A DNA stretch of 64,000 bases. Origin: a virus. Position 1 is the first letter of the stretch. Each line of letters starts with the position of its first letter. A program made the position numbers and the translations under genes. The stretch covers positions 24,107 to 88,106 of IMG/VR virus record IMGVR_UViG_3300027129_000004. One strand, given 5' to 3'. Positions 1,007 through 23,663 of the stretch are shown one piece after another. Under the pieces are notes generated by a model. That model worked only from the letters and a program-made list of their open reading frames with translations. It did no database searches and was not told where the DNA came from.

Positions 1007-1161
1007 CTGATGAAGTAAAAGAACTCCAAAAGTTCTTGGATGATAATAACATCACCTTTGAAGAGTATATGAGAGCAAATATGATTACTGATGAAGAACG
1101 GAAATATCTTGATAAGATATGGATGGATGCGATTTATAAGAACTTGGGTGAGAACACTTGA
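1003..1161 (+). CDS. Small hypothetical protein (intact member of a duplicated pair)
   Basis: This 52-aa protein shares its first half with the broken copy at 627-719 and continues with DEERKYLDKIWMDAIYKNL, probably a helix. Function is unknown. The start overlaps the preceding stop (ATGA), and the stop lies at the edge of the promoter cassette that begins at 1160, so this is the last gene of the first operon. Too short for the usual gene-calling cutoffs, but the duplication supports it as a real gene. Confidence 0.6.
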   Translation: MTDEVKELQKFLDDNNITFEEYMRANMITDEERKYLDKIWMDAIYKNLGENT

Positions 1162-1219
1162 AGAACTGGCACAGGGGATTCTCTGGATGCCTCTTTAGGT
1201 GGTATGATAGTCTCATACG
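1160..1219 (+). promoter_or_regulatory. Early promoter cassette 1 (-10 TATGAT)
   Basis: The cassette starts with a GAACTGGCACAGG box, then GGATTCTCTGG, and has a -10 TATGAT at 1203-1208. It is followed by AGTCTCATAC, a tail shared with the cassettes at 5288, 7568 and 9491. GTATGA and TCATAC around the -10 form a 6-bp inverted repeat. The near twin is the cassette at 5757. It would drive the operon starting at 1231. Confidence 0.65.
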
Positions 1220-1230
1220 CAACCAAACCG

Positions 1231-1404
1231 ATGGACTACGAAACTCACATCGACATCCACCAGTATTTCCCTGATGATAGATTTTATTACAAACTCAAAG
1301 TCACAGATGTAATGAATATGGATTACTACTATGAGGGTAGTGCTAAAACTCTTGATGATGTTATGGATTGTATCAAACTTCACCTCAAACAACACCAGAA
1401 CTGA
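1231..1404 (+). CDS. Small hypothetical protein
   Basis: I place the start at the ATG at 1231 (57 aa) because the longer in-frame reading would begin inside the -10 box of the cassette just upstream. The product is acidic and aromatic (DIHQYFPDDRFYYKLKVTDV), likely a small alpha/beta fold, with no recognisable motif. It is the first gene behind this promoter; the next gene starts one base after its stop. Confidence 0.65.
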   Translation: MDYETHIDIHQYFPDDRFYYKLKVTDVMNMDYYYEGSAKTLDDVMDCIKLHLKQHQN

Positions 1405-1405
1405 A

Positions 1406-1570
1406 ATGACTGAACAACCAAAACTCTACGAAATGAGTGTAGAAGAAGTCAAAGAGTATCTAAAAACTCAATCAAAACCACAAAGTTCTTATCAACCAGA
1501 AAAGAAAAAGAAACCAGAAGAACCACCTCAATACTTTTACGACATTTCTACAAATCTTTTTGTTGGATGA
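1406..1570 (+). CDS. Small Pro/Lys-rich hypothetical protein
   Basis: This 54-aa product has a helical start (YEMSVEEVKEYL), then a low-complexity PEKKKKPEEPPQ linker and an aromatic end. It starts at GAACTGAAATGACT, a junction sequence reused at 1901, 2219 and 2423, in which the upstream stop and downstream ATG nearly coincide. It overlaps the next gene by 4 bp. Function unknown. Confidence 0.6.
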   Translation: MTEQPKLYEMSVEEVKEYLKTQSKPQSSYQPEKKKKPEEPPQYFYDISTNLFVG

Positions 1571-1896
1571 TTGACCTTTCACAACTGACCGAAGAACAAC
1601 TCAACGAACTTCAACTTCAAATCCAAAAGCATAAGGAACAACAGAAGACAAAGGATGCTCTGGAAAATCTACAAGGTTATAAAGTAACTTTTTATATTAG
1701 GTTTGACCCTGAAAAGCATAAGAATCATGATATGCTTACAAATGATGGAGAACTTGACCCGAACATTTTTGCTGATTATCTGTGTGATAATCTTGTTACA
1801 GACCTGATTAGGGATTTTGAATTGTATGGTTATGAGGATGTGAATTATCCTACTGTGGAAGTAGCAACAAAACAAGAAATTGAAGAGAAATTTTGA
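1567..1896 (+). CDS. Hypothetical protein
   Basis: The 109-aa protein has an N-terminal amphipathic helix rich in Gln/Glu/Lys (about residues 5-30) followed by an alpha/beta region with YKVTFYIRFDPEKH and an acidic C-terminus. No known family was recognised. The 4-bp overlap with the preceding gene and the 9-bp gap to the next place it in the same coupled operon. Confidence 0.7.
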   Translation: MIDLSQLTEEQLNELQLQIQKHKEQQKTKDALENLQGYKVTFYIRFDPEKHKNHDMLTNDGELDPNIFADYLCDNLVTDLIRDFELYGYEDVNYPTVEVATKQEIEEKF

Positions 1897-1905
1897 GGAA
1901 CTGAA

Positions 1906-2229
1906 ATGACTGCCTTCACTTACAAAGGATACGGACGCATCTACACTAATCCAGAGAATATTCAAGATGTAGAACAAATCATTCAAGAACTTGATGAGTT
2001 TGAGTGGGGTTATTATACAGGAGGACTTGTAGCATCTTGGGATATGTATCCAAATGTTGAGTATGTTGGTAAGTTTGAACTGAATGAAGAAAAGTTCAAA
2101 CAAATCTGTAAAGAACGAAACATTCCTGTTTTTGTCTTTAATGCTTATGATAATGATTATCCTCGTGGTTATGTCAAAACTTTGAATAAAGAAGAAATCA
2201 AAACACTTTCTTATGGAGAACTGAAATGA
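1906..2229 (+). CDS. Hypothetical protein
   Basis: This 107-aa protein has a mixed alpha/beta pattern with a GYGRIYTNPENIQDVEQII opening that resembles many small ferredoxin-like folds, but no motif identifies it. Start is at the reused ACTGAAATGACT junction. The last codon region overlaps the next start by 4 bp. Ordinary codon use for this block. Confidence 0.7.
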   Translation: MTAFTYKGYGRIYTNPENIQDVEQIIQELDEFEWGYYTGGLVASWDMYPNVEYVGKFELNEEKFKQICKERNIPVFVFNAYDNDYPRGYVKTLNKEEIKTLSYGELK

Positions 2230-2432
2230 CTACGCAAATCACCAAAGAACAACTGAATCAACTTTGGAATGCGATTGAATACACACGGGGAACGATTGGA
2301 AATGGTTGTGTAATTGAAAGTACGGAAAAACCTGATTGGGTGCTCATTCATAAAGATAGGGCACATCAATCCAGAGAGTTTCTAAATCAAGCAAAAGACC
2401 TTGTAAATCAACTCAAAGCACAACTGAAATGA
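2226..2432 (+). CDS. Small hypothetical protein
   Basis: The 68-aa product begins with MTTQITKEQLNQLW and ends in a Gln/Lys helix (AKDLVNQLKAQLK). It contains a central short beta-like segment with a single Cys. No family is recognised. It overlaps its neighbours by 4 bp on each side, so translation is probably coupled across 1906-2656. Confidence 0.65.
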   Translation: MTTQITKEQLNQLWNAIEYTRGTIGNGCVIESTEKPDWVLIHKDRAHQSREFLNQAKDLVNQLKAQLK

Positions 2433-2656
2433 CTAACGAAGAAAAACTCAATCTTCTCCTCAAGGTTCTCAAAGAAGTAGCAGAGGTAAAACACTGCTAT
2501 GAAGGTCTATTTGGAGATGATTATACTCCAAGTGCTGGTAGTTATGATGATGCCTTTGAAGATGGTTGTGCTTATGGTGAGATTACCTTTGCCCGCACTA
2601 TGTTAGAATGTATTGGTGAAAAGTTTGAGTATCCTTGTATGAAAGAAAATGACTGA
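2429..2656 (+). CDS. Small hypothetical protein
   Basis: The 75-aa product has an N-terminal helix (EEKLNLLLKVLKEVAEVKH) and an acidic loop with GDDYTPSAGSYDDAFEDGCAYGE, the type of DAFEDGxxYGE segment that recurs in small phage proteins of unknown role. It overlaps the upstream gene by 4 bp and the downstream gene by 8 bp. Confidence 0.65.
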   Translation: MTNEEKLNLLLKVLKEVAEVKHCYEGLFGDDYTPSAGSYDDAFEDGCAYGEITFARTMLECIGEKFEYPCMKEND

Positions 2657-2831
2657 ACGAGTAAAATTCACACACATCACACGAGTGATTGGACCAAAAT
2701 CAGGTATTCATTATTTGGATGCTATTGATGAGAATGGACAACACTGGACTGCTGAAATGTCTCACGGTGTAGAACCTTGGATTGTTTATACTTCTAATTG
2801 GAAAAAAGACCCACAACAACCTTATGACTAA
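2649..2831 (+). CDS. Small hypothetical protein
   Basis: This 60-aa product is beta-rich (VKFTHITRVIG, IHYLDAIDENGQHWTAEM) and ends in a Pro/Trp segment. The fold suggests a small beta-barrel, but there is no diagnostic motif. It overlaps both neighbours by 8 bp. Confidence 0.65.
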   Translation: MTERVKFTHITRVIGPKSGIHYLDAIDENGQHWTAEMSHGVEPWIVYTSNWKKDPQQPYD

Positions 2832-3075
2832 ACATCCTACGAACGATTGGAACTTTCACGATGACGCAGAGGATGCCTTTGTAAAGTGGTTTAATGACTT
2901 TTATAGTCCTTATACTTTTCGTAGTGAGTGGTTTTATGGGGACTGTAAAGTAGAAGACGAAAAGACCCGTGAGGACATTATGTATGGTTGGATACACGCA
3001 TCTTTTGTTGCTGGTTGGGAAGCAGCAAACTATGCTAAACTGGAGGAGGAAGTAGGACTTACTGATAATGAGTGA
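2824..3075 (+). CDS. Conserved-type cyanophage hypothetical protein (YTFRSEWFYGD)
   Basis: I choose the ATG at 2824 (83 aa), which overlaps the preceding stop; an in-frame upstream ATG at 2782 would lie deep in the previous gene. The FVKWFNDFY, YTFRSEWFYGD and MYGWIHASFVAGWEAA segments form a pattern I associate with small conserved proteins of T4-like cyanophages, by memory rather than by search. Role unknown. It overlaps the gene at 3068 by 8 bp. Confidence 0.7.
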   Translation: MTKHPTNDWNFHDDAEDAFVKWFNDFYSPYTFRSEWFYGDCKVEDEKTREDIMYGWIHASFVAGWEAANYAKLEEEVGLTDNE

Positions 3076-3610
3076 TATAATCTACTACAAAAATGGTGAG
3101 GAAACATTTCGTATTTCTCCTTCAACTGTTGGAACCAAATGCCCTGAAACTAAACTTGAAATCAAAATGATTGAACAAAAATTCACACTTGAACTCACAC
3201 TTGACGAACTTCACATGCTTGATAAGTATGTTGAATATTGTGAAGAAACAAAAGAGTTTTTTGAAAAACTTAAGAATGCTTATCCTAAACCAAAATCACC
3301 AATAGAAGAAGCATATAAGGACTGGTGTGGTGAGTATCCATTAGGTTCTCCAAGTGAAGACGCAAGGTGGGGTGCTTTTTTAGCAGGTTATCGAGTAACA
3401 CAACCAAAAGCAGTTCCAGTTGATGACCCTCCCGAATATGATGAAATTGAACACGATATTAGTGAAAATGTAGAAAATAAAACAATCCGTCAGGTGATAG
3501 ACCGATGGTGGATGGATACATTCACATCTAAAAATATGTGGTCTGTTAATGAATGTATTGATGACCTTGCTGACCAAATTCAATTTTGGATTTTGAGGAA
3601 TAAGAAATGA
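3068..3610 (+). CDS. Hypothetical protein, founder of a local paralogue family
   Basis: The 180-aa protein has three parts: an N-terminal strand region (YYKNGEETFRISP, GTKCPETKLEIK), a middle PIEEAYKDWCGEYP...GAFLAGY segment, and a C-terminal segment VIDRWWMDTFTSKNMWSVNECIDDLADQI. The N-terminal part recurs in the truncated gene at 8055. The middle and C-terminal parts recur in the gene at 3607 (AYRDAYGHYP...AFQKGYEAAQPK; KWWTTCYSKHWTIDECTADL). The WW and NEC/DEC positions are conserved between copies. Function unknown. Confidence 0.7.
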   Translation: MSDIIYYKNGEETFRISPSTVGTKCPETKLEIKMIEQKFTLELTLDELHMLDKYVEYCEETKEFFEKLKNAYPKPKSPIEEAYKDWCGEYPLGSPSEDARWGAFLAGYRVTQPKAVPVDDPPEYDEIEHDISENVENKTIRQVIDRWWMDTFTSKNMWSVNECIDDLADQIQFWILRNKK

Positions 3611-4422
3611 CTAACCCAATTGAAGAACTAAAAGAAAAAATTGCTACGATGCAACATAACCTCAAAGTATTGGAGCAACTTGAAGCAAGCACAACAGATG
3701 TAGAAAAGGCATACAGGGATGCCTACGGACATTATCCAGAAACAAGTAGTTTTGCTGTAAGTGATTGGGATGTTATAAGTTGGGAAGCATTCCAGAAGGG
3801 TTATGAGGCAGCACAACCAAAAGAAGTTTCAGTAGAAGAACAAACAAAACCGATGGAGGAAGTTGTGGATAGGTTGGAGAACAAATGGAATTCTGCAGCA
3901 GAGAATTCTGCAGCAGAGAATTCTGCTTATTATATTACTGATGAAGTAGTTGATAGGTTGATAAAACAACAACAAGCACAAAAACTCTACAATAGATTGT
4001 ATGATGAACCAGAGCATTATGATGAAGTGGAGTGGGATGAGAAGGATAATCCAAAACCTATGAATGAGGTTCTGGATAGGTTGGAGAATAAGTGGAATTC
4101 TGCGACAGAGAATTCTGCTTCTTATATTACTGATGAAGTTGTGAATAGAATGTTGAAGAAGTGGGAGGAAAATCCACCAGAGTTCTTGAAGTTTGAGTTG
4201 GGGGAAACCCTAGAAACCCGAATTTATAAGTGGTGGACTACTTGCTATAGCAAACACTGGACTATTGATGAGTGTACTGCAGATTTACTGGATATTGTAG
4301 AATTATTTCTTCCACGAGAACAATCGGCAGAGGGGTCTCAAAATATCAATACCGAAGTTGCTGTAGAAGCACATAATGAACTTTTGCAGAAAATCAAATC
4401 AAAATTGAGGAATAAGAAATGA
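3607..4422 (+). CDS. Hypothetical protein with internal duplication
   Basis: The 271-aa protein is a paralogue of the upstream gene with an expanded middle. A segment of the form P-M-x-E-V-x-DRLENKWNSA-x-ENSA...YITDEVV-x-R occurs twice (about residues 80-118 and 151-182). Inside the first copy the SAAENSAAEN stretch is itself a small tandem repeat. EWDEKDNP, AQKLYNRL and EGSQNINTE segments recur in the gene at 6347. The repeats suggest growth by slippage or recombination. It overlaps the gene at 4419 by 4 bp. Function unknown. Confidence 0.7.
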   Translation: MTNPIEELKEKIATMQHNLKVLEQLEASTTDVEKAYRDAYGHYPETSSFAVSDWDVISWEAFQKGYEAAQPKEVSVEEQTKPMEEVVDRLENKWNSAAENSAAENSAYYITDEVVDRLIKQQQAQKLYNRLYDEPEHYDEVEWDEKDNPKPMNEVLDRLENKWNSATENSASYITDEVVNRMLKKWEENPPEFLKFELGETLETRIYKWWTTCYSKHWTIDECTADLLDIVELFLPREQSAEGSQNINTEVAVEAHNELLQKIKSKLRNKK

Positions 4423-4619: not shown

Positions 4620-4843
4620 GATACAATCCAGCAGATTGGGATACTTATACTCAAAAACAAAGAAAAGAGTGGCATTACAAACCATATGAAGAACAACGAG
4701 AGATTATAAATCAATCATATCTCTCAATTATTACTGATGAGAATGGAAATCTTGATGCTTTGAAAATCCTTGAGATTATTATGGATTTACAAGACCGAGT
4801 AGAAGACCTTGAAACAGAATGTGTGAGGAAGGATTATTTCTAA
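4616..4843 (+). CDS. Small hypothetical protein
   Basis: The 75-aa product ends in a probable coiled coil (LKILEIIMDLQDRVEDLE). Its C-terminal half is like those of the genes at 5902 and 6873, where an ENGN/DAL-type loop precedes a helix ending in a D-R-x-E-x-L pattern, so it may be a distant relative. Stop TAA overlaps the next ATG (TAATG). Confidence 0.65.
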   Translation: MRYNPADWDTYTQKQRKEWHYKPYEEQREIINQSYLSIITDENGNLDALKILEIIMDLQDRVEDLETECVRKDYF

Positions 4844-4992
4844 TGACCGAACAATACGGGAATCTTCCTGATGGTTTCTTTCTTTCTGAAAAGGGGATTG
4901 AAGACTTGAGAAACTCTAAAAAAGAATTGACGACTTATGGTAGAGAGAAACTGAGAGAACTTATTGAAAAGCAGAAGAAAGAGGACACCTGA
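4843..4992 (+). CDS. Small hypothetical protein, copy A of a recent duplicate
   Basis: The 49-aa product (MTEQYGNLPDGFFL, then a charged helix with KKELTTYGREKLRELIEKQ) is almost identical, at DNA and protein level, to the gene at 7418. Differences cluster at codons 15-18 (SEKG versus YERE). The duplication extends through the stop codon and into GACACCTGAC. Function unknown; the recent duplication supports it as a real gene despite its length. Confidence 0.7.
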   Translation: MTEQYGNLPDGFFLSEKGIEDLRNSKKELTTYGREKLRELIEKQKKEDT

Positions 4993-5016
4993 CGAACGTA
5001 TTAAAGGCAAACTGTA

Positions 5017-5268: not shown

Positions 5269-5287
5269 AAAACTCTTGGATCTGTAG

Positions 5288-5356
5288 GACACCTGACGAA
5301 CTGGCACAAGATCCCTCCACAGGGGCACCAGATGCCCTATAATAGTCTCATACACA
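5288..5356 (+). promoter_or_regulatory. Early promoter cassette 2 (-10 TATAAT)
   Basis: GGACACCTGACGAACTGGCACA is followed by CTCCAC (5315-5320), a 17-nt spacer containing GGGGCACCAGATGCCC, then TATAAT at 5338-5343 and AGTCTCATACACA. The cassette at 7568 is nearly identical over its whole length. The CTCCAC hexamer sits at the -35 distance but is far from TTGACA. It would drive the gene at 5367. Confidence 0.75.
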
Positions 5357-5366: not shown

Positions 5367-5756
5367 ATGAAACCCTTTGATTACTACTCCAAACCCCAAA
5401 CTGTTTATCCCAACAAAAAGGATTACATCACCTCTTATGTTTATGATAAGGGTGTAGTTCTTTGGTCTGGTCCTACTTGGGAAAAGGATAAAGCAGAACT
5501 AAAAGAAGAATATCCTAATGCTCTCATTCAAGAAATTTTGGATGAGGACGCATACAAGGCACAACGCAAAAAATATACTGATGAAGAGTTTAATCTTCAA
5601 GTACAGTTCCAGAATGATTTGTTTGAAGATTATGGTGTGACTGATAATCCTAAAAGGTTCATGTGTTTTGACCTTGCTTGGGAACAGGGACACGCTTATG
5701 GTCTTGAAGAAGTGTATAATAAGTTTGATGACTTGGTGGAACTTATTAAGGATTGA
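5367..5756 (+). CDS. Conserved-type hypothetical protein
   Basis: This 129-aa protein starts with MKPFDYYSKPQ and has a central DEDAYKAQRKKYTDEEF segment and a C-terminal WEQGHAYGLEEVYNKFDDLVELI, a GHAYG-x-EEV motif that recurs in short phage proteins of this type. It is the only gene between two promoter cassettes, so it is a single-gene transcription unit. Function unknown. Confidence 0.7.
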   Translation: MKPFDYYSKPQTVYPNKKDYITSYVYDKGVVLWSGPTWEKDKAELKEEYPNALIQEILDEDAYKAQRKKYTDEEFNLQVQFQNDLFEDYGVTDNPKRFMCFDLAWEQGHAYGLEEVYNKFDDLVELIKD

Positions 5757-5827
5757 GGACACTTGATGAACTGGCACAGGGGATTCTCTGGGTGCCTCTG
5801 GATGGTGTATAATACTCCTATACACCC
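5757..5827 (+). promoter_or_regulatory. Early promoter cassette 3 (-10 TATAAT in an inverted repeat)
   Basis: GAGGACACTTGATGAACTGGCACAGG and GGATTCTCTGG match cassette 1. The -10 TATAAT (5808-5813) lies inside a perfect 8-bp inverted repeat GGTGTATA/TATACACC (5804-5811 and 5819-5826). The symmetric arms over the start site could act as an operator or put a stem-loop at the extreme 5' end of the transcript. Confidence 0.7.
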
Positions 5828-7421: not shown

Positions 7422-7567
7422 CCGAACAATACGGGAATCTTCCTGATGGTTTCTTTCTTTATGAAAGGGAGATTGAAGACTTGAGAAACTCTAAAAAAGA
7501 ATTGACGACTTATGGTAGAGAGAAACTGAGAGAACTTATTGAAAAGCAGAAGAAAGAGGACACCTGA
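7418..7567 (+). CDS. Small hypothetical protein, copy B of a recent duplicate
   Basis: Near-identical to the gene at 4843-4992 over all 150 bp, apart from a few changes near codons 15-18. In this copy the stop runs directly into promoter cassette 4, whereas copy A is separated from the equivalent cassette by the gene at 5017. Gene and cassette may therefore have been copied as one unit, or a gene was inserted at copy A. Confidence 0.7.
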   Translation: MTEQYGNLPDGFFLYEREIEDLRNSKKELTTYGREKLRELIEKQKKEDT

Positions 7568-7626
7568 CCAACTGGCACAAGACCCCTCCACAGGGGCACC
7601 AGATGCCTTATAATAGTCTCATACAC
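7568..7626 (+). promoter_or_regulatory. Early promoter cassette 4 (-10 TATAAT)
   Basis: Nearly identical to the cassette at 5288. The CCAACTGGCACAAG box is followed by CTCCAC (7586-7591), a 17-nt spacer, TATAAT (7609-7614) and AGTCTCATACACA. It would drive the gene at 7647. Confidence 0.75.
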
Positions 7627-8300: not shown

Positions 8301-9089
8301 ATGGAACTCAAAGAGTATCACTATGTTTATTATTCCTATGAGGAATATGGTAGAGGATATTTTGGTAGTAGAACTTGTAAATGTTTACCAGAAGATGATG
8401 TAAGATATTTTGGTTCTTACAGGGATAAGACATTCAAACCAACTCAAAAGATAATCTTGAAAAGTGATTATGCTACAAGAGAAGAGGCATATGATGATGA
8501 GATTACTTTACAAGAATATTATAAAGTAGTTGAAAATCCACATTTTTCTAATAGGGCATATCAAACATCTACAAAATTTTCTTATATAAGACCAACAGAA
8601 CAAGCAAGAGAAATTGGAAAAAAATCTGGATTAAAAGTAAAAGAACTTGGATTGGGATTTCACGCACTCACAAAAGAACAATTAAGTGAAAATTCTAAAA
8701 AAATGGTAGAAAAACATAGAAAAACTGGAACTGGTTTATTTACTTTAACTAATGAACAAAGAAGTAAAGGTGGATTAAAAAATAAAGAACAAGGTTCGGG
8801 AATTTTTTCTTTAACGGAAGAAGAAAAACAAAAAATAAGAAGTGAAGCAGGAAAAATAGGAGGGAAAAGGGCAGCAGAACTGAAAGTAGGTGCTCACGGA
8901 AGAACAAAAGAACAGATGAGTGAGGATGGTAAAAAAGTATCAAAATCAGTAAGAATACAAGCAGGAAAAACAACAAGTTCTCAAAGATGGATGTGTCTTG
9001 AAACAGGACATATTTCTACACCAGGAGGACTTTCAAAATATCAAAAACATAAAGGAATAGATACTTCTAGAAGAATAAGAGTATCATAA
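8301..9089 (+). CDS. GIY-YIG-type homing endonuclease
   Basis: The 262-aa protein opens with YVYYSYEEYGRGYFGSRTC, a GIY-YIG-like catalytic start (Y-x-Y then Y-F-G-S, residues about 8-26). It continues with Lys-rich segments in which a unit G-x-G-(F/L)-x-(A/T/S)-LT-x-E-(Q/E) recurs three to four times between residues 110 and 215, like the DNA-binding repeats (NUMOD3-type) of homing enzymes. It would cut a specific site in a related phage to spread its gene. It stands behind its own late promoter and beside a tRNA. The family call is by eye. Confidence 0.75.
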   Translation: MELKEYHYVYYSYEEYGRGYFGSRTCKCLPEDDVRYFGSYRDKTFKPTQKIILKSDYATREEAYDDEITLQEYYKVVENPHFSNRAYQTSTKFSYIRPTEQAREIGKKSGLKVKELGLGFHALTKEQLSENSKKMVEKHRKTGTGLFTLTNEQRSKGGLKNKEQGSGIFSLTEEEKQKIRSEAGKIGGKRAAELKVGAHGRTKEQMSEDGKKVSKSVRIQAGKTTSSQRWMCLETGHISTPGGLSKYQKHKGIDTSRRIRVS

Positions 9090-9148
9090 AGGACACTTGA
9101 CGAACTGGAACAAGGTGCCTTTACGGGGCACCTTTTTTGTTGTATAAT
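9088..9148 (+). promoter_or_regulatory. Early promoter cassette 5 (terminator plus TATAAT)
   Basis: GGACACTTGACGAACTGGAACAAG is followed by the terminator at 9112 and then TATAAT at 9143-9148. No TTGACA lies at the -35 distance. It drives the gene at 9170. Confidence 0.7.
9112..9138 (+). terminator. Rho-independent terminator
   Basis: GGTGCC (9114-9119) and GGCACC (9127-9132) enclose TTTACGG and are followed by six T. It ends the endonuclease transcript and overlaps promoter cassette 5, so terminator and promoter are joined in one element. Confidence 0.85.
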
Positions 9149-9490: not shown

Positions 9491-9560
9491 TGTGACACTT
9501 GTGAAACTGGCACAAGACCCCACCAATCCCCCTGTGGATGCCCTATAATAGTCTCATATT
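9491..9560 (+). promoter_or_regulatory. Early promoter cassette 6 (-10 TATAAT)
   Basis: GTGACACTTGTGAAACTGGCACAAG opens the cassette; TATAAT lies at 9544-9549 and AGTCTCATA follows. It links the GACACTTGACGAACTGG form of the box seen at 5757 and 9088 with the GTGCCACTTGTAGCACTGG form seen further right. It drives the gene at 9572. Confidence 0.7.
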
Positions 9561-10036: not shown

Positions 10037-10063
10037 AATGGACAGTTTTTTCACTGTCCATTT
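10037..10063 (+). terminator. Hairpin, probable terminator
   Basis: AATGGACAGT (10037-10046) pairs perfectly with ACTGTCCATT (10053-10062), enclosing a T-rich loop. It follows the gene at 9829. The downstream T run is short, so termination may be partial. Confidence 0.6.
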
Positions 10064-10067: not shown

Positions 10068-10096
10068 TTGATTACGCACCGAAAGGGTGCTATGAT
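10068..10096 (+). promoter_or_regulatory. Sigma70-type promoter TTGATT-17-TATGAT
   Basis: TTGATT (10068-10073) and TATGAT (10091-10096) are 17 nt apart with an extended -10 (TGC just upstream). Together with the hairpin at 10037 it forms another stem-loop plus promoter pair, but without the GTGCCA box. Confidence 0.75.
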
Positions 10097-10464: not shown

Positions 10465-10695
10465 ATGTCTGACCTTTATACTGAAATCTTGGTGTTTAAC
10501 AAAATGTCTTTTAATCGTGAGCAACTTGTTGAGGATTATATCCAGCAAACGATTGGAGGAATGGATTATAAGACTATGGAACGTTTTGTTTATGATACTT
10601 TGAAAGATAATCTAGCAGATTATAATGATGAAGAATTGATTACAGAGGTTACAGACTACTACCCAGAATTGTTGGAGGATGTTGATACTCTGTGA
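10465..10695 (+). CDS. Conserved-type small acidic hypothetical protein
   Basis: The 76-aa product is acidic and helical (REQLVEDYIQQTIGG; DYKTMERFVYDTLKDNLADY). The stretch FVYDTLKDNL...YNDEELITEV resembles small conserved cyanophage proteins by memory. It ends inside promoter cassette 7. Confidence 0.65.
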   Translation: MSDLYTEILVFNKMSFNREQLVEDYIQQTIGGMDYKTMERFVYDTLKDNLADYNDEELITEVTDYYPELLEDVDTL

Positions 10696-10760
10696 CACTT
10701 GTGGCACTGGCACACTAAAAGATCACAGCACCTCAAATCCTGCTATAATTACTTCGTAAT
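10691..10760 (+). promoter_or_regulatory. Early promoter cassette 7 (-10 TATAAT)
   Basis: GTGACACTTGTGGCACTGGCACAC is followed by GATCAC (10721-10726), a 17-nt spacer and an extended -10 TGCTATAAT (TATAAT 10744-10749). The -10 merges into a short inverted repeat ATTAC-TTC-GTAAT (10748-10760). Drives the gene at 10772. Confidence 0.7.
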
Positions 10761-10956: not shown

Positions 10957-11021
10957 TGTGCCACTGATTCTTCTGGCACATAACACTTTACAGACCCCAG
11001 AACCTGTGCTATGATGTATTC
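10957..11021 (+). promoter_or_regulatory. Early promoter cassette 8 (TTTACA-17-TATGAT)
   Basis: GTGCCA (10958-10963) and TGGCAC (10974-10979) form the stem-loop. TTTACA (10987-10992) stands exactly where other cassettes have GAGCAC and is followed by the shared AGACCCC. Extended -10 TGCTATGAT (TATGAT 11010-11015) is 17 nt away. This copy shows that the GAGCAC element occupies the -35 position. Confidence 0.75.
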
Positions 11022-11272: not shown

Positions 11273-11503
11273 ATGTCTGCTAAACTGATTGCTCTTGCTT
11301 CCGAAATCGTTGATACCAACCCTGCTGCTGCTCAACTGATTGTTAGTCTGACTAAAGCAGAAACTGGTGCTGAACTCATCGAAGCACTTGATAACTATGA
11401 TTCCACCGTGCTTGAGAACTATTCTGAACCTGTGGATTCTGAAGATGAAGATGAAGGTGAAGTGACTCTCACCGATGCAGATGGTATTGTAACTTCTGTT
11501 TGA
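11273..11503 (+). CDS. Hypothetical protein, acidic tail
   Basis: The 76-aa product has an Ala/Leu-rich helical first half (LIALASEIVDTNPAAAQLIV) and an acidic tail (DSEDEDEGEVTLTDADG). It is likely soluble. No family recognised. It sits 38 bp upstream of the gene at 11542 with no promoter cassette between. Confidence 0.7.
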   Translation: MSAKLIALASEIVDTNPAAAQLIVSLTKAETGAELIEALDNYDSTVLENYSEPVDSEDEDEGEVTLTDADGIVTSV

Positions 11504-11793: not shown

Positions 11794-11878
11794 TTCTTAC
11801 GGGCATCAAAGGTCCAAACTTTGAATAAGACCCACACCCTCTATGCCTCTTAACAATGCACAAACCAGAGGGTCTCTT

Positions 11879-12064: not shown

Positions 12065-12640
12065 ATGAAAGGTACTATTTATTGTATCCACTGTATTTCC
12101 ACTGGAGAGAAATATATTGGACAAACCAGAAGAAGTATACAAGATAGACTAAGATATCACAAATACGCATCTGCAAAAAGTTCCAGAGCAAAATTATACA
12201 TACAAGCAAATAAAACTGGATGGGATGATTTCATAATTGGGATTGTTGAGCAGTGTGAGGTCAATCAATTAAATGGAAAAGAATGTTTTTATATTGAAAC
12301 ATTTAATACTTTAGAAAAAGGACTGAATAGTTCTCCAGGTGGAGGAAAATTCCCAGTTATGAAAGGAAAATTGCACCCTTTGTTTGGAAAAGGACATAAA
12401 AAGGAAACAAAATTAAAAATAAGCAAAAATCATCACAATGTCTTAGGAAAAAACAATCCAAGGTCAAATTATTATGAAGTTGAATTTTTAAATGGAAAAA
12501 AAGAAACTGTTCATTGTTTGACGGAGTGGGGAAGAAACAATGGATACAAAAAACAAAATTTATTTAATTTAGCTTGCAATCTCCAGAAATCACCTCACAA
12601 AGATATTTTAAAAATTACTAAAATTCAAAATGAAAGTTAA
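12065..12640 (+). CDS. GIY-YIG homing endonuclease
   Basis: The 191-aa protein starts MKGTIYCIHC and has KYIGQT near residue 17-22, the two halves of a GIY-YIG core (Y...YIG-x-T), followed by R and H residues expected in the active site. Residues 95-125 (GKLHPLFGKGHKKETKLKIS) match a NUMOD3-type DNA-binding motif. The C-terminal part (LTEWGRNNGYKKQNLFNLA) looks like a helical DNA-contact segment. Such enzymes spread their own genes between phages. It sits directly after a tRNA and overlaps the phosphoesterase gene by 11 bp. Confidence 0.85.
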   Translation: MKGTIYCIHCISTGEKYIGQTRRSIQDRLRYHKYASAKSSRAKLYIQANKTGWDDFIIGIVEQCEVNQLNGKECFYIETFNTLEKGLNSSPGGGKFPVMKGKLHPLFGKGHKKETKLKISKNHHNVLGKNNPRSNYYEVEFLNGKKETVHCLTEWGRNNGYKKQNLFNLACNLQKSPHKDILKITKIQNES

Positions 12641-13451: not shown

Positions 13452-13928
13452 ATGGACTACTTAAAAATTGAACCAAATCAAACTATTCTTGTTCTAAACG
13501 CATCCTATGAACCAATTAACTTTACTAATTGGAAAAGAGCAATCGTGCTGCTTATGAAGAACAAAGCACAAGCACTTGGTAAGAGAGTCATTCGACTGGT
13601 CAATTACATTAAGTTGCCCTACGAGAAACTAATGCAAAATAGACCATCACGAGCAATGATTTATAAACGTGATGGTCATAAGTGTCAGTATTGTGGTTCG
13701 ACTAAAGAACTAACTATTGACCACATCATCCCACGTTCTCGTGGTGGTGAAGATACTTGGGAAAATCTTACTGTTGCTTGTATGCCTTGCAACTCTAAAA
13801 AAAGTGATAAACTTCTTGAAGAAACTAATTTGTCTCTTCGCACTATTCCAAAAAAACCACTGAATAAGATGCTATTTGCTCTCGATAGAGCAAATGACCC
13901 AGAGTGGAATGAATACTCTTATGCCTAA
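13452..13928 (+). CDS. HNH endonuclease with two zinc-binding Cys pairs
   Basis: The 158-aa protein has an N-terminal segment (LVLNASYEPINFTNWKRAI) typical of cyanobacterial and phage HNH proteins, then an HNH domain: CQYC (78-81), DH (90-91), an Asn-containing stretch near 105, and CMPC (110-113) followed by N114. The four Cys probably hold a structural zinc and D-H/N/N the catalytic metal. It may be free-standing and mobile or act in packaging or host DNA breakdown. The stop overlaps the next gene by 8 bp. Confidence 0.88.
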   Translation: MDYLKIEPNQTILVLNASYEPINFTNWKRAIVLLMKNKAQALGKRVIRLVNYIKLPYEKLMQNRPSRAMIYKRDGHKCQYCGSTKELTIDHIIPRSRGGEDTWENLTVACMPCNSKKSDKLLEETNLSLRTIPKKPLNKMLFALDRANDPEWNEYSYA

Positions 13929-14085: not shown

Positions 14086-14090
14086 TCAGT

Positions 14091-14155
14091 GTGCCACTTG
14101 TAGCACTGTCCCTAACACCTCTCCAAACCCCCTGGAGGGGTGTTATACTATGGAG
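14091..14155 (+). promoter_or_regulatory. Early promoter cassette 9 (GC hairpin plus TATACT)
   Basis: GTGCCACTTGTAGCACTG opens the cassette. CACCTCTCC and GGAGGGGTG form a 9-bp stem (one G-U) directly upstream of the -10 TATACT (14144-14149). The hairpin occupies the -35 region, as at 16231. Confidence 0.65.
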
Positions 14156-14172: not shown

Positions 14173-14295
14173 ATGACTCCAAATTGGCAGCACAACTCAG
14201 GAAAAAATAAGAATACTAAAGGTTCTTGTAAGGGGAAACTCAAAGCAAGAAAACAAGCATTGCAGCACATCAAACGCAAACTCAAAGTAATCTGA
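14173..14295 (+). CDS. Very small basic protein
   Basis: The 40-aa product is highly basic (GKNKNTKGSCKGKLKARKQ), suggesting nucleic-acid binding. It has a good ribosome-binding site (AAAGGGGAGGG) just upstream. It overlaps the next ATG as TGATG. Too short for family assignment. Confidence 0.6.
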   Translation: MTPNWQHNSGKNKNTKGSCKGKLKARKQALQHIKRKLKVI

Positions 14296-14886: not shown

Positions 14887-14957
14887 TGTGCCACCTGTAG
14901 CACTGGCACAGTAAATGAGCACAGACCCCCCTGATGCCCTACAATACAGGGACACAA
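14887..14957 (+). promoter_or_regulatory. Early promoter cassette 10 (GAGCAC-17-TACAAT)
   Basis: GTGCCACCTGTAGCACTGGCACAG, then GAGCAC (14917-14922), the shared AGACCCC, a 17-nt spacer and -10 TACAAT (14940-14945). It drives the TTG-initiated gene at 14972. Confidence 0.7.
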
Positions 14958-16206: not shown

Positions 16207-16270
16207 CTGTGCCACTTGTGGAACCGTCCAGCACTCTTCCCGAACGCACGGGAGGGGTGCTATAATGTAT
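16207..16270 (+). promoter_or_regulatory. Early promoter cassette 11 (12-bp hairpin plus TATAAT)
   Basis: GTGCCACTTGTGGAAC is followed by a hairpin of twelve pairs with G-U wobbles (GCACTCTTCCCG/CGGGAGGGGTGC, 16231-16260) whose last bases run directly into TATAAT (16261-16266). The stem covers the -35 region and can also end upstream transcription. It drives the helicase gene. Confidence 0.75.
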
Positions 16271-16296
16271 GAATACAAACGTTACTTGACTTATTG

Positions 16297-17532
16297 ATGC
16301 TGACTCTTCTTCCTTATCAACAACGTGCTCTGAAAGCAGTTCAGAACTCCATTAAAGGTTCTGTGTATATTCCTACTGGTGGTGGGAAAACTGTTGTGAT
16401 GATGGAAGATGCTCGTCAGAGGATTCTTAACGCACTGGAACCAATGACATTTGTTGTTGTTGCTCCTCGTATTCTGCTTGCAAATCAACTTTGTTCTGAG
16501 TTTGAAGCATATCTCAAGGACCAGAATGTTGCTTATATGCACGTTCACAGTGGTGAAACTCATCATCAATCCTCTACACGTCCAGCAGACATTGCAGAAT
16601 ACAATGACACTGCAATCGGAAGTGGCAAGCATCAGTTTATCTTCACCACTTACAATTCGATTGGTCGGGTGAATGAGTCTGATATTGAAATTGATGTTGT
16701 GTATTTTGATGAAGCACATCATTGCGTGAAACCATCTAACTTTGTGGGTATTGCTCATACTTCATCAGTTGCAGATAATGCTTATTTCTTCACTGCAACT
16801 CCGAAGTTCAATAACAGTATGGAGTCTATGAATAATACTGATGTTTATGGCAACAACATCATCAGTATTCCTGCACAAGAACTGATTGATGCTGGTAGTA
16901 TTATTCCTCCCAAAGTTGTGCCTTATGAAGCACAAACCATTCGCACTAAAGAAAATGCTGCATTTGTAGATGCAGAGAACATTGTAGGTATCCTGTCAGA
17001 GATTTCTGATTGTGATGCACCTAAAGTTCTTGTTGCTGCTCCTAGCACCAAAGTAATCTGGGCAATGTTTACTGAGAGTGATTTGCTTCAACAACTCAAT
17101 GATATGGGTTATACGATTATGCATATCACTTCTAAGCACGGTGCTTATATTGACAAACAGAAAGTGTCTCGTGAAGTCTTCTTTGAGAAGATGAATGAGT
17201 TTGGTGCAGACCCAGAAAAGAAGTTCATTGTGTTTCACTACAGCATCTTGTCTGAGGGTATGAACGTGCAGGGATTGACTGATTGCATTATGCTTCGCAA
17301 TCTTCCATTGATTGAAATGGCACAGACTGTTGGACGGGTTATCCGTATGCACGGTGATGACCGTAAAGCAATCGCAGATGGTAAGATGAAAGCAGGAGAG
17401 TTTGCTTTCTACAAGAAACCATTTGGCACTATCACGATTCCTGTTAATAACAACTATGGTGATAAGATTGCAAAGCAACTTCAAAATGTTGTGGATACTA
17501 TCTTTGTGAAAGGTGAAGTTCTTGGTGTATAA
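16297..17532 (+). CDS. Superfamily 2 DEAD/DEAH-type helicase
   Basis: The protein is about 411 aa. Walker A PTGGGKT lies near residues 26-32, the DEAH box (FDEAHH) near 138-142, motif III-like TATP near 166-169, and motif VI QTVGRVIRM near the C-terminal third, after SEGMNVQGLTDCIML. All motor motifs are intact, so it should be an ATP-driven DNA or RNA translocase. T4 UvsW plays a comparable role in recombination and origin control, but I cannot say it is the same protein. A TTG one codon earlier could also serve as the start. Confidence 0.88.
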   Translation: MLTLLPYQQRALKAVQNSIKGSVYIPTGGGKTVVMMEDARQRILNALEPMTFVVVAPRILLANQLCSEFEAYLKDQNVAYMHVHSGETHHQSSTRPADIAEYNDTAIGSGKHQFIFTTYNSIGRVNESDIEIDVVYFDEAHHCVKPSNFVGIAHTSSVADNAYFFTATPKFNNSMESMNNTDVYGNNIISIPAQELIDAGSIIPPKVVPYEAQTIRTKENAAFVDAENIVGILSEISDCDAPKVLVAAPSTKVIWAMFTESDLLQQLNDMGYTIMHITSKHGAYIDKQKVSREVFFEKMNEFGADPEKKFIVFHYSILSEGMNVQGLTDCIMLRNLPLIEMAQTVGRVIRMHGDDRKAIADGKMKAGEFAFYKKPFGTITIPVNNNYGDKIAKQLQNVVDTIFVKGEVLGV

Positions 17533-17724: not shown

Positions 17725-17739
17725 GTCCAATGATATCCT

Positions 17740-17805
17740 GTGCCACCTGTAGCACTGGCACAGTAAATGAGCACATACCCCTAAATGTGTTATAGTAGTT
17801 CTATG
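17740..17805 (+). promoter_or_regulatory. Early promoter cassette 12 (GAGCAC-16-TATAGT)
   Basis: GTGCCACCTGTAGCACTGGCACAG, GAGCAC (17769-17774) and -10 TATAGT (17791-17796), 16 nt apart. Nearly identical to cassette 10 in its upstream half. Drives the operon at 17823. Confidence 0.7.
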
Positions 17806-18641: not shown

Positions 18642-18710
18642 TGTGCCAGTTGTAGCACTGGCACACTAAAAGAGCACAGAGGCACCAGATGCCTTATAAT
18701 ACTCTCATAC
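18642..18710 (+). promoter_or_regulatory. Early promoter cassette 13 (GAGCAC-17-TATAAT)
   Basis: GTGCCAGTTGTAGCACTGGCACAC, GAGCAC (18672-18677), then GGCACCAGATGCC as in cassettes 2 and 4, TATAAT (18695-18700) and ACTCTCATAC. It combines the left half of one subtype with the right half of another, which suggests recombination between cassettes. Confidence 0.75.
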
Positions 18711-18889: not shown

Positions 18890-18922
18890 TTGCCCTACCT
18901 GGTGGTCTGACTGGTAAGTGAT

Positions 18923-18990
18923 GGCACTCTGAAAACTGGCACAGGGCATCCTTCGGAGTGCCCTTTGATGCCTTATAATACTCTCATACA
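18923..18990 (+). promoter_or_regulatory. Early promoter cassette 14 (terminator plus TATAAT)
   Basis: After AAAACTGGCACAG a hairpin GGGCATCC-TTC-GGAGTGCCC with TTT tail forms a probable terminator, followed by TATAAT (18974-18979) and ACTCTCATACA. Like cassettes 5, 9 and 11, it joins termination and initiation. Confidence 0.75.
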
Positions 18991-19632: not shown

Positions 19633-19633
19633 A

Positions 19634-20223: not shown

Positions 20224-20228
20224 GTCTA

Positions 20229-20306
20229 GTGTGAGACTGTGACAGTTGGGGGACTGTCCACCAAACCCCCCATTTCCCCCTCTGGGGTGCTATCATTACA
20301 AAGTAA
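20229..20306 (+). promoter_or_regulatory. Early promoter cassette 15 (two hairpins plus TATCAT)
   Basis: GACAGT/ACTGTC encloses a G-rich loop, then a C-rich/G-rich hairpin (CCCC...GGGG) runs into an extended -10 TGCTATCAT (20291-20296). ATTAC-AAA-GTAAT follows, as in cassette 7. No GTGCCA box remains, but the layout is the same. Drives the antirestriction-like gene. Confidence 0.65.
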
Positions 20307-20324
20307 TCGAGGTTAAGAGACCCA

Positions 20325-20720: not shown

Positions 20721-20722
20721 AT

Positions 20723-20971
20723 ATGAAACTTCAATCTAACGATGGAAACATGGTGGTAGATTTCTACCCCATCAAAACACCTTTTGGTGATGTATCTCAA
20801 GAGTGGTTCTTGAAGACTCTCACTTTTATGGGTCAAAGTCAATCCAAGAAGTTTCTCAATCGCATTGAGATGAATCTTGAGATTGAAGAATATCTCAATC
20901 ACACTATTCCGTATGAAGTTGTAGACTTCAATACGATTCCACAACTTGCTAATCCTTTTATTGGTGTCTGA
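20723..20971 (+). CDS. Small hypothetical protein
   Basis: The 82-aa product starts two bases after the upstream TGA (TGAATATG) and is alpha/beta (MKLQSNDGNMVVDFYPIKTP; KKFLNRIEMNLEIEEYLN). Family unknown. Likely co-expressed with the antirestriction-like gene. Confidence 0.65.
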   Translation: MKLQSNDGNMVVDFYPIKTPFGDVSQEWFLKTLTFMGQSQSKKFLNRIEMNLEIEEYLNHTIPYEVVDFNTIPQLANPFIGV

Positions 20972-20973
20972 CA

Positions 20974-21189
20974 ATGCTTCTGAAACTAACTGACATTGAG
21001 TTTGATTTTGATGATGGAGAAGAAATCTCTGGGGAACTTCCTTATGATGAACAGGTTGCAGTCACTAAATCCGTGATTGGTGAAGTCTTTGAGGTTGAGA
21101 CTGAAGATGAACTTGCTGATGCAGTTTCTGACAGAACTGGTTGGTGTGTGAAATATCTTGATTATGTTGAAATCTCTGAATCTCACTGA
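20974..21189 (+). CDS. Conserved-type small acidic protein
   Basis: The 71-aa product has LTDIEFDFDDGEE, YDEQVAVTKSVIGEVFEVE and GWCVKYLDYVEI. This arrangement (acidic strand, YDEQ helix, GWCVK strand) is one I associate with a conserved small protein of T4-like cyanophages, by memory. Function unknown. TGACAATG junction with its upstream neighbour. Confidence 0.7.
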   Translation: MLLKLTDIEFDFDDGEEISGELPYDEQVAVTKSVIGEVFEVETEDELADAVSDRTGWCVKYLDYVEISESH

Positions 21190-21204
21190 GTCCAATGATG
21201 CCCT

Positions 21205-21290
21205 GTGCCACTTCTTCTAGTGGCACACTAAAAGAGCACAGACCCCTAAATGTGGTATTCTTAAAGGGTGGAAGGGGTCACACCCACCCA
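21205..21290 (+). promoter_or_regulatory. Early promoter cassette 16 (8-bp stem-loop, GAGCAC, TATTCT)
   Basis: GTGCCACT/AGTGGCAC (21205-21212, 21219-21226) is a perfect 8-bp stem with a 6-nt loop. GAGCAC (21234-21239) with AGACCCC follows; the -10 is TATTCT (21256-21261). The next stretch GGGTG...CACCC would form a hairpin early in the leader. The stem is the fullest form of the box that is degenerate in cassettes 1-6. Confidence 0.7.
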
Positions 21291-21316
21291 CAAACGTCCA
21301 ACTAACTCAAACTAAA

Positions 21317-21514
21317 ATGACTGTTGATTTCTCTCGTGATGTGATGGTTGCTATGCTCTGCCAGGGTGATACTGGCAACGACATTCTGGATATTCTGAAT
21401 GTTCTTGTTCCCTATCAAACTGAACTCACTCGTGAGCAAGTTTGTGAAGACCTGGGCATTGCTGATTGTCCTGAGAATGATGATGAGATTGCCCGTGCTA
21501 TGGTTGCTGCCTGA
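21317..21514 (+). CDS. Small acidic hypothetical protein
   Basis: The 65-aa product (MTVDFSRDVMVAMLCQGDTGN...) is helical and acidic with three Cys. A 5' leader hairpin precedes it. Family unknown. Confidence 0.65.
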   Translation: MTVDFSRDVMVAMLCQGDTGNDILDILNVLVPYQTELTREQVCEDLGIADCPENDDEIARAMVAA

Positions 21515-21577
21515 GTTTAATTTGGGGGAGATTCAATTCTCCCTCTGTGGATTTAATTCATTTACTCTTTGATTCCA

Positions 21578-21766
21578 ATGTTTGTTATCTGTCCCGCATC
21601 TTTTGATTTGATTGATGCTGAGTGGTTTGACAATGTATATGAAGCAAAAGATGAAGCACTTGATTGGAGTGTTGAACTCTCTGGTGAGAATGTGATTGTT
21701 TATCGGGCAGTTGAGGAAGATGATGGTGCTTATGAGTTTGATAAACTCTATGCCATCTCTGCCTGA
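21578..21766 (+). CDS. Small acidic hypothetical protein
   Basis: I start at ATG 21578 (62 aa). The product is alpha/beta (FVICPASFDLIDAEWFDNVY; EALDWSVELSGENVIVYR) with an acidic end. The stop overlaps the next ATG (TGATG). Family unknown. Confidence 0.65.
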   Translation: MFVICPASFDLIDAEWFDNVYEAKDEALDWSVELSGENVIVYRAVEEDDGAYEFDKLYAISA

Positions 21767-21918
21767 TGAGAACTAAAACACTCACATTTAGACCACCAAA
21801 TAAGATGCGAACTATAATTCTTATCTTTGCAGTTGCATTTATTTTCTCTCCGAGTGTGAGGAATGTAACTGCAAACACACTTTACACTGTTGCTGATATT
21901 ATCAGCACAAATCGGTGA
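21766..21918 (+). CDS. Small membrane or secreted protein
   Basis: The 50-aa product has a basic start (MRTKTLTFRPPNKMR), a hydrophobic stretch (TIILIFAVAFIFSP) and a polar end. It could be a signal peptide or membrane anchor. Overlaps the previous stop. Just upstream of cassette 17. Confidence 0.5.
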   Translation: MRTKTLTFRPPNKMRTIILIFAVAFIFSPSVRNVTANTLYTVADIISTNR

Positions 21919-21933
21919 GTCCAGTGTTGAGAT

Positions 21934-22045
21934 GTGCCACTTGTTCTAGTGGCACACGAAATGGGCACAGACCCCCAAATATGCTAATCTTAAAGGGTGG
22001 AGGGAGCAGGTCGCACTGTCCCACCCGAGTCTCAATCTTCATTCT
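21934..22045 (+). promoter_or_regulatory. Early promoter cassette 17 with structured leader
   Basis: GTGCCACT/AGTGGCAC (21934-21941, 21948-21955) with a 6-nt loop, GGGCAC (21963-21968), -10 TAATCT (21985-21990), then a leader with GGGTGGAGGG and CCCACCCGAGTC that can pair, followed by TCTTCATTCTTTTA before the ATG. The leader is nearly the same in cassette 18, so post-transcriptional control may be shared. Confidence 0.7.
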
Positions 22046-22051
22046 TTTAAC

Positions 22052-22726
22052 ATGGACCGTTCACAAGTCATCTCCAAGATTCAGTCTATCCTGAAACTTC
22101 AGGAAGGAACTTCTTTTGATGGTGAAGCAGATGCTGCTGCCAAGATGATTGATAAACTGTGTAAGCAGTATGGTGTTACAATCACCGAAGCAACTGAAAC
22201 TCAAGTTTATGATGAATCTTTCATCAATTTCAAACGTGTGAATGTTGCACTTACAACTCTTCTGAATGCGATTGCATCTTTCTATGATGCAAAGGCATAT
22301 ATGAAGAATGGTGATGTTAAGTCTCTGCAAATCATTGGTAGTGAAGCACAACAAATCCAAGTGCGTCTCTATTATGATTACCTGAATCAAGTGATGGAGA
22401 AAGAAGCAGAAGTTGCATATCAAGCAGAGAAGATTATGTCTGCTCTAACTGGTGCAACTGTTTCTCGTAGTTTCAAACTTAATTTCCGCAAGGCATTTGC
22501 AGATAATGTTGCTCTGCGTTTGCGTGAAATGAAGAAAGCAGAGAACCGAGTTCACGATGATGCAAAAGCAGTGAGTGATAAACTCTCTACGATGCGATTC
22601 GGACGTGCAAAGAAGATGAATGGTGCTAATGGTGCTGGTGCTTATGCTGGTTCTAACGTTGGTGCTGGTGTATCTCTGAACCGTCAAGCAACTGGTTCTG
22701 TGACCAAACAACTGTGTGGAGTGTGA
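22052..22726 (+). CDS. DUF2786-type protein
   Basis: The 224-aa protein opens with ISKIQSILKLQEG...GEADAAAKMIDKLCKQYGVT, matching the DUF2786 pattern of phage and plasmid proteins (K-I-x-x-(L)LKL ... EA-x-AA-x-K-x-x-x-L-x-x-x-YG). Many are next to helicases or ssDNA-binding proteins, but the function is unknown. The middle is alpha-rich with KAENRVHDDAKAVSDKL. The C-terminus is Gly/Ala-rich (NGAGAYAGSNVGAG), a likely flexible tail. It follows a structured early leader. Confidence 0.7.
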   Translation: MDRSQVISKIQSILKLQEGTSFDGEADAAAKMIDKLCKQYGVTITEATETQVYDESFINFKRVNVALTTLLNAIASFYDAKAYMKNGDVKSLQIIGSEAQQIQVRLYYDYLNQVMEKEAEVAYQAEKIMSALTGATVSRSFKLNFRKAFADNVALRLREMKKAENRVHDDAKAVSDKLSTMRFGRAKKMNGANGAGAYAGSNVGAGVSLNRQATGSVTKQLCGV

Positions 22727-22770
22727 GTTAATCTCGCCTCTACTTCACTTTTCCCTTTATTCCTAATACG

Positions 22771-23103
22771 ATGAACGCACAACTGACAATTGATGAGTGT
22801 AAACTGATGTGGGTTGTTGGTGCATTGCAACGACTTGCAACTTTGGGTATGATTGGTCCTGATATTCCTCTGAAACTTTCTGGTAGTGCAGTAGATGATT
22901 ATCTTTATATTGATGAGCATCGGGAAATTCTGTTTGAATCTGATTTTGAGATTGCAAGTATTTTCACTGCTATTGTCAATAGTGAATGTGACCCAAAAGT
23001 TCAAAATCCTGATGATACCAAACCTCTGATTGAACTTCTTCTGCAATATAAGAACAATCGCACCGAGATTGTGAAGTATGCACTCTCGCAACAAGTTATT
23101 TGA
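22771..23103 (+). CDS. Hypothetical protein
   Basis: The 110-aa protein begins MNAQLTIDECKLMWVVGALQ and is helical, with a middle SGSAVDDYLYIDEH and a C-terminal ELLLQYKNNRTEIVKYALSQ. Family unknown. Probably in the same transcript as the DUF2786 gene; the 44-bp gap carries no cassette. Confidence 0.65.
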   Translation: MNAQLTIDECKLMWVVGALQRLATLGMIGPDIPLKLSGSAVDDYLYIDEHREILFESDFEIASIFTAIVNSECDPKVQNPDDTKPLIELLLQYKNNRTEIVKYALSQQVI

Positions 23104-23105
23104 AA

Positions 23106-23303
23106 ATGACAATGGATAAAGATTTAATGCAAATCACACTGAGTAAGGAAAATTATAAGGTTCTACATAAACTCATCTGCGACCAAATGGTTTATATTCT
23201 TTCTCCGTTTGACAATGATGATTATGAACCAACGCAAGAACATCTAAAGATTCTCGACGCAGTTACAAAGTTCAGTTCTTATCAAGTTACTTACAATGTT
23301 TGA
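23106..23303 (+). CDS. Small hypothetical protein
   Basis: The 65-aa product from ATG 23106 (a further ATG lies at 23112) is helical with QITLSKENYKVLHKLICDQM and an acidic linker. It overlaps the gene at 23296 by 8 bp. Family unknown. Confidence 0.65.
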   Translation: MTMDKDLMQITLSKENYKVLHKLICDQMVYILSPFDNDDYEPTQEHLKILDAVTKFSSYQVTYNV

Positions 23304-23544
23304 CCTTCTGAAGTTTAACCCCCATCATATTCCTGAGTGTATTCAAGCACGACATAAGTTTTCCAACGGTTGGGAGATTAGTGTAGTTGCTGGTCCACCG
23401 AATTGTGGTCTCTATGGCAACATCAATGAGAACAATTATGAAGTTGCAATTTTCCGTCCCAATGGAAATATGACTGAAGATGTAAATGGTTGGAATACTA
23501 AAGAAGAAGTATCTGCGATGATGTGGGTGCTGTCTCAACTCTAG
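23296..23544 (+). CDS. Conserved-type phage hypothetical protein
   Basis: The 82-aa product is beta-rich: RHKFSNGWEISVVAGPPNCG, NYEVAIFRPNG and a C-terminal W-N-T-K-EEVSAMMWVLSQL. The layout (NGW-x-x-SV, G-x-YG, YEVA(I/V)) recurs in short phage proteins of unknown function. It overlaps its upstream neighbour by 8 bp and closes the operon. Confidence 0.7.
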   Translation: MFDLLKFNPHHIPECIQARHKFSNGWEISVVAGPPNCGLYGNINENNYEVAIFRPNGNMTEDVNGWNTKEEVSAMMWVLSQL

Positions 23545-23557
23545 TCTCTTATACCGT

Positions 23558-23658
23558 GTGCCACTTGTTCTAGTGGCACAGTAAATGAGCACAGACCCCT
23601 GGATGTGGTATATTAAAGAGGTGGAGGGGTCTGGTCCCACCCGAGTCCCATTCTTCAT
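23558..23658 (+). promoter_or_regulatory. Early promoter cassette 18 with structured leader
   Basis: GTGCCACT/AGTGGCAC (23558-23565, 23572-23579), GAGCAC (23587-23592), -10 TATATT (23609-23614) and a leader with GGTGGAGGGG and CCCACCCGAGTC, then TTCTTCATTCTTT before the ATG at 23664. The leader is nearly identical to that of cassette 17. Confidence 0.75.
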
Positions 23659-23663
23659 TCTTT

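Follow-up and report, generated by a model that had tools for sequence, protein, structure and literature searches.

The promoter-early stem-loops (PeSLs) of T4-type phages, which go back to Arbiol and colleagues in 2010 and to Comeau and colleagues in 2014, are reportedly units made of a promoter plus a hairpin. A further early-gene regulatory element, said to be common in T4-like cyanophages (Syn9, P-TIM40), was reported in a 2016 study by Doron and colleagues. The sites of P2 Ogr and P4 delta are dyads of the form TGT-N12-ACA near -55 of late promoters lacking a good -35, where a small activator contacts the RNA polymerase. T4-like cyanophages have no homologues of alt, mod, motA or asiA, and the start of their early transcription was called unclear in a 2010 review (PMC2984593). 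We have analysed a window of 64,000 nucleotides (bases 24107–88106 of the 88,106-base IMG/VR virus record IMGVR_UViG_3300027129_000004), in which a cassette consisting of an inverted repeat (the box) and a -10 element is repeated upstream of genes. Judging from its genes, the source of the record, a virus of freshwater cyanobacteria, is a T4-like cyanophage, since T4-like baseplate and tail proteins are encoded in the right half of the window and the nearest matches of its helicase belong to marine Synechococcus phages (54% identity); for the stretches that were compared, no close relative turned up among the collected phages. We consider that the cassette probably serves the host RNA polymerase as an early promoter, with the dyad docking a dimeric activator.

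The pattern GTGCCA-N2..12-TGGCAC occurs seven times in the window (0.01 expected), and the alignment of the window copies gives CTGGCACA, then TATAAT, which begins 35–37 nt (mostly 36) past the start of TGGCAC regardless of the intervening sequence. A two-block profile (box and -10), trained on IMG/VR loci of other phages only (two fragments of a phage near-identical to this one among them), converged on a near-perfect palindrome, the 24-bp dyad TGTGCCASTT-N4-AASTGGCACA, plus TATAAT. This profile found 34 sites with a score >13 in the whole record, against ca. 1–2 expected in shuffles. Nineteen boxes lie within 1150–23580 of the window, every one upstream of genes on the + strand, in good agreement with the roughly eighteen that an earlier note on this DNA had counted by eye; the array is longer than that count implied, since a further ten or more copies precede the window (record positions 941, 2052, 6998, 8524, 9100, 10895, 13605, 13891, 15975, and 18007), i.e., about 30 in the record. 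The structural half of the record gave only a few weak scores and no strong cassette. A sigma-54-like reading of the box as TGGCAC-N5-TTGC was rejected because the spacing is wrong.

The distance from box to -10 is rigid (29 ± 1 bp), while the spacer sequences vary freely. Among viral contigs of IMG/VR, the exact string AACTGGCACA-N28-30-TATAATA matches at least 120 stretches whose intervening sequences have little in common, and among the matches listed the gaps of 29, 30, and 28 number 105, 33, and 18. The dyad centre is thus placed ca. 53.5 bp upstream of the inferred transcription start. Position near -55 and a poor -35 are features shared with the Ogr and delta sites, but the box has another sequence and half-site spacing, and the genes behind it, which lie in clusters of small non-structural genes, are predicted to be early. 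Sites selected by the box alone had a good -10 block 27–31 nt away in 93% of cases versus 9% at random positions, a difference that is strong but not fully independent, because both blocks of the profile, box and -10, had been trained together. All copies have a promoter-like, sigma-70-type -10, and over 405 de-duplicated cassettes the consensus is CATA with an A at the expected +1, 12 bases past the first base of the -10; in most window copies this inferred start (mostly an A) falls 13–26 nt before the start codon. The -10 at a fixed distance followed by a gene, as first noticed by eye, is therefore a real regularity. At least five of the six bases of a TTGACA -35 are present in 13% of the cassettes (1% expected) and at least four in 31% (10% expected), so that most cassettes lack a good -35 and a minority keep one.

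Is the box a stem in RNA or a dyad in DNA? In its literal PeSL form, the first possibility would have the box act as a stem-loop ending the upstream transcript, be it as terminator, stability or processing element; the earlier note had also called the box a stem-loop. The cassettes are indeed located between genes and, as the earlier note had observed, the left third of the array has degenerate arms, whereas perfect 8-bp inverted repeats occur late in it, at 21204, 21933, and 23557 (the three copies with the weakest -10s, TATTCT, TAATCT, and TATATT). However, the arms do not covary: in the 405 cassettes mirrored positions match by Watson-Crick rules about as often as independent arms would, the only position pair that varies freely on both sides (9/18, G or C) pairs below chance (z = -4.05), and all eight inner positions pair in only 6 of the 405. 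The rigid spacing to the -10 and the lack of a T-run directly after the box in the window copies also speak against an RNA element, which we regard as improbable. The lack of covariation and the fixed distance lead us to read the box as a DNA dyad, and they point to a protein that would bind it as a dimer. Hairpins do exist in the cassettes, within the spacer: 25% of spacers contain a hairpin of at least 5 bp (5% expected), and in 13% (1% expected), about half of the hairpin-bearing ones, it has a T-rich tail. Terminator-like hairpins, which the earlier note had reported for several copies, are thus real; between box and -10 they are confined to a minority, and are clear in the 9089 cassette of the window and in the one at record position 9100. 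The likeness to PeSLs stands for the repeated units between small variable genes and may, in this subset, extend to a composite of terminator and promoter; it fails for the constant part, which here is a DNA dyad at ca. -53 and not a stem-loop, the terminators being optional.

The dimeric protein bound to the dyad would help to hold the polymerase (a class-I-like contact, possibly with the alpha C-terminal domain) and would compensate for the weak -35, which would allow numerous short early operons to fire together, while the embedded terminator, where present, would stop read-through from the preceding operon. In this upstream position the dyad is compatible with activation and repression alike, and it might instead be the operator of a repressor that shuts the early promoters off or keeps them off, a view to which the partial -35 kept by about one third of the cassettes lends itself. 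However, operators are generally known to overlap the core promoter, whereas the dyad here is always at ca. -53 and at a fixed distance, and a good -35 is missing from most of these promoters; we find a repressor unlikely, if less so than the RNA element. The activator that we prefer has several points weighing against it. Activation is favored over repression by geometry alone. Box strength shows no trade-off with the strength of either -35 or -10, contrary to simple compensation, and the third of the cassettes with at least four of six -35 bases includes some that may work without an activator. The host genomes, searched with exact patterns, show no matching sites, which weakens a host regulator, and the gene families common to the phages with the box are for the most part genes of photosynthesis and metabolism or encode small proteins of no known function, with no binder identified among them.

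We scanned other phage genomes with the profile, as the earlier note had suggested. At a score >13 there were 16 sites in Syn9 and 20 in P-TIM40 (shuffle expectation ca. 2–5 for these two), and 30 each in S-CRM01 and S-PM2. In S-PM2, 28 sites scored >14, over half of them within the first 24 kb, and the Syn9 boxes are densest at 43–53 kb, amid small genes of mostly unknown function. Since the box is likewise present in Syn9 and P-TIM40, the promoter part of the cassette is presumably the Syn9 early element of Doron and colleagues. That description may already cover the embedded terminators, the role as seams (see below), and the sites in S-SKS1 and S-TIM5; the geometry of the DNA dyad, the terminator embedded in some copies, the statistics on seams, and the presence or absence across phage lineages and hosts seem to be additional. 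In S-SKS1 we found 26 sites at a score >14 (0.7 expected) and in S-TIM5 11 (1.6 expected). The profile was at chance level in T4 (two sites), the pelagiphage HTVC008M (three), P-SSP7 (one), Ma-LMM01, and S-CBS2, and gave no site in P-SS2. Judged by these scans, T4-like cyanophages (Syn9, S-PM2, P-TIM40, S-CRM01) generally have the cassette, and it is also present in two other lineages (S-SKS1, S-TIM5). The expectation that the box differs from that of T4 is borne out, T4 having no copies above chance, which is one more difference from PeSLs; yet the box is not peculiar to this phage. HTVC008M is classed together with the T4-like cyanophages in one family, yet infects SAR11 and has no box, while S-SKS1 and S-TIM5 are classed outside that family, yet infect marine Synechococcus and have it, so the box follows the host and not the phage family. 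Its use is not universal, as P-SS2 and S-CBS2 are picocyanobacterial phages without it. The result for Ma-LMM01 fits its early promoters, which were reported as SigA-like (PMC5780444).

That the box tracks picocyanobacterial hosts over three phage lineages favors a host protein as its reader; that host chromosomes show no matching sites to exact patterns favors one carried by the phage. In 251 picocyanobacterial genomes the N4-centred palindrome was not enriched over other spacings, and 10 of the 12 matches listed were one conserved terminator-like site by ridA. In 400 such genomes box plus -10 was found four times, three of them on one contig that reads as a cyanophage (small genes, hli-like open reading frames). 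These searches used exact patterns, which limits their power; a one-mismatch comparison with a reversed control was confounded by composition and was not used. With no enrichment of the palindrome and so few complete matches, the idea that a host regulator governs a conventional regulon through the box is unsupported. Predicted NtcA and Pho sites are carried by marine cyanophages (PMC3037559), and the box could in principle be one of these known cyanobacterial sites; its consensus has neither the half-sites nor the spacing of NtcA (GTA-N8-TAC) or the Pho box (CTTA-N7-CTTA), for which reason we exclude this reading and give it next to no credence. One Cyanobium genome has, at L286:2045–2062, an exact palindrome that resembles the box but has longer arms, GTGCCACTTATACAACTGGCACA; it lies ca. 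180 bp upstream of a tyrosine integrase (2240–3520), with a second near-match ca. 14 kb away, and the element might be a phage satellite that makes use of the phage promoter.

The candidates for a phage-coded binder are weak. Syn9 gp230, annotated as a transcriptional regulator, was rejected; although widespread, it lacks both a counterpart in S-TIM5 and a Pfam domain. Two families of small basic proteins follow the box in their occurrence. One is a peptide related to phrog_3309 (PNWQ..S..K), encoded at 14173–14295 as the first gene behind the 14090 cassette and present in six of the seven phages with the box that were examined (P-TIM40 being the exception) and in none of six without it; the other is a phrog_516 protein (KTRQG...RGQG) at ca. 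28851–28991, in the structural region, found in all seven and weakly in P-SS2.

The genes next to the cassettes point to a second role. The first genes behind 29 cassettes are mutually unrelated save for two pairs, very much as the earlier note had it, and in different phages near-identical cassettes are flanked by genes that have nothing in common, often right at synteny breaks. We compared 529 cassettes with their 300-bp flanks, taking as similar a pair with at least 80% identity over at least 60 nt. Of 431 similar pairs, 277 had both flanks unrelated, 99 one flank conserved, and 55 both, although these are not independent events, since one moved cassette can enter many pairs. Shuffling the columns of the gap-29 cassettes left no similar pair against 330 observed, so the likeness reflects copying and not motif constraint alone. 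This supports the idea, already put forward in the earlier note, that cassettes are copied or exchanged independently of the adjoining genes, and the break of synteny at the cassette is a further likeness to PeSLs. At record position 13605 the entire upstream flank is common with locus L101, and downstream there is nothing in common. In the window, the 5285 and 7556 cassettes are 96% identical and the 156-bp stretches preceding them 97% alike (that of 7556 resembles 4842–4997), while the 18642 cassette resembles the 14887/17739 subtype in its left part and the 7556 subtype in its right, and looks like the mosaic of two subtypes that had been suspected. Homologous recombination between cassettes would shuffle early genes, as proposed for PeSLs. 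The coincidence with synteny breaks might also be expected if the repeats served DNA processing, for example as sites where replication starts, DNA is packaged or recombination occurs, with the promoters being incidental; but the orientation is fixed, as are the distances to the -10, to the inferred start, and to the start codon, and the structural half has no strong cassette, which makes this very improbable. Puxty et al. (PMC4503421) judged PeSL-driven shuffling unlikely in S-PM2 because only two stem-loops were seen; the one they give at 11369–11391 falls inside a cassette (11363–11405). The published ends of the S-PM2 ORFanage deletion (5,799 and 15,339; PMC4503421) do not coincide with cassettes, which therefore leave that deletion unexplained.

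The individual copies, all on the + strand, are as follows. The first box (1150–1173; profile score 34.8) has its -10, TATGAT, at 1203–1208 and an inferred start at 1215. The box at 5285–5308 (40.5) is followed by TATAAT at 5338–5343, a start at 5350, and a gene with its ATG at 5367, its spacer holding the hairpin GGGCA-CCAGA-TGCCC. Next come 5755–5778 (39.0; TATAAT 5808–5813, start 5820) and 7556–7579 (36.9; TATAAT 7609–7614, start 7621, ATG 7647). At 9089–9112 (TGGAACA; 27.7; TATAAT 9143–9148, ATG 9170) an intrinsic terminator with an 8-bp stem and a T-run occupies ca. 9111–9137, between box and -10. The best box of the window is at 9491–9514 (46.2; TATAAT 9544–9549, start 9556, ATG 9572). 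The weak one at 10038–10061 (GGACAGT-N8-ACTGTCC; 21.3; TATGAT 10091–10096, ATG 10116) could alternatively represent an ordinary terminator with a promoter behind it. Its right arm, ACTGTCC, recurs in two of the three copies with a variant right arm, namely 14090–14113 (32.1; TATACT 14144–14149) and 20238–20261 (30.3; TATCAT 20291–20296, ATG 20325); the third, 16208–16231, has ACCGTCC (30.9; TATAAT 16261–16266) and precedes the helicase frame (16294–17532; phrog_16, E = 7.5e-66).

The remaining copies in the middle of the array are 10691–10714 (40.8; TATAAT 10744–10749, ATG 10772), 10957–10980 (30.7; TATGAT 11010–11015, ATG 11044), 14887–14910 (34.4; TACAAT 14940–14945, start 14952), 17739–17762 (32.7; TATAGT 17791–17796, ATG 17823), the mosaic at 18642–18665 (44.0; TATAAT 18695–18700, ATG 18722), and 18920–18943 (34.7; TATAAT 18974–18979, ATG 19005). 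The perfect-arm copies are 21204–21227 (31.4; -10 at 21256–21261, ATG 21317), 21933–21956 (-10 at 21985–21990), and 23557–23580 (34.4; -10 at 23609–23614, ATG 23664); the second was found by palindrome search, the profile scoring the opposite strand higher there because the box is symmetric. A possible weak extra box lies at 25682–25705 (19.5; poor -10).

An ordinary promoter without a box (TTGACA-N17-TATGAT, 23933–23961) adjoins the array. An HNH endonuclease is encoded at 26513–27574, just 5' of the structural region, and the open reading frames at 8301–9089, 12065–12640, and 13452–13928 look, judged by reading alone, like more endonucleases. An abiF RNA (Rfam, 48.8 bits, gathering threshold 37) is found at 11837–11873, directly upstream of a tRNA-Arg.

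It is conceivable, and we put it forward tentatively, that cyanophages of three or more unrelated lineages (T4-like, S-SKS1, S-TIM5) have one early-promoter code in common, that its reader is a dedicated regulator carried by the phages themselves and perhaps delivered with the virion, and that the cassettes are the seams along which early genes are exchanged; we place the regulator in the phage because the host chromosomes show no matching sites. The sharp 24-bp consensus with its defined geometry makes the reader of the box directly addressable by experiment. The homology limited to the cassettes, with 28 scored sites in S-PM2, revives for that phage the gene-shuffling mechanism that was dropped when PeSLs appeared too sparse there (PMC4503421).

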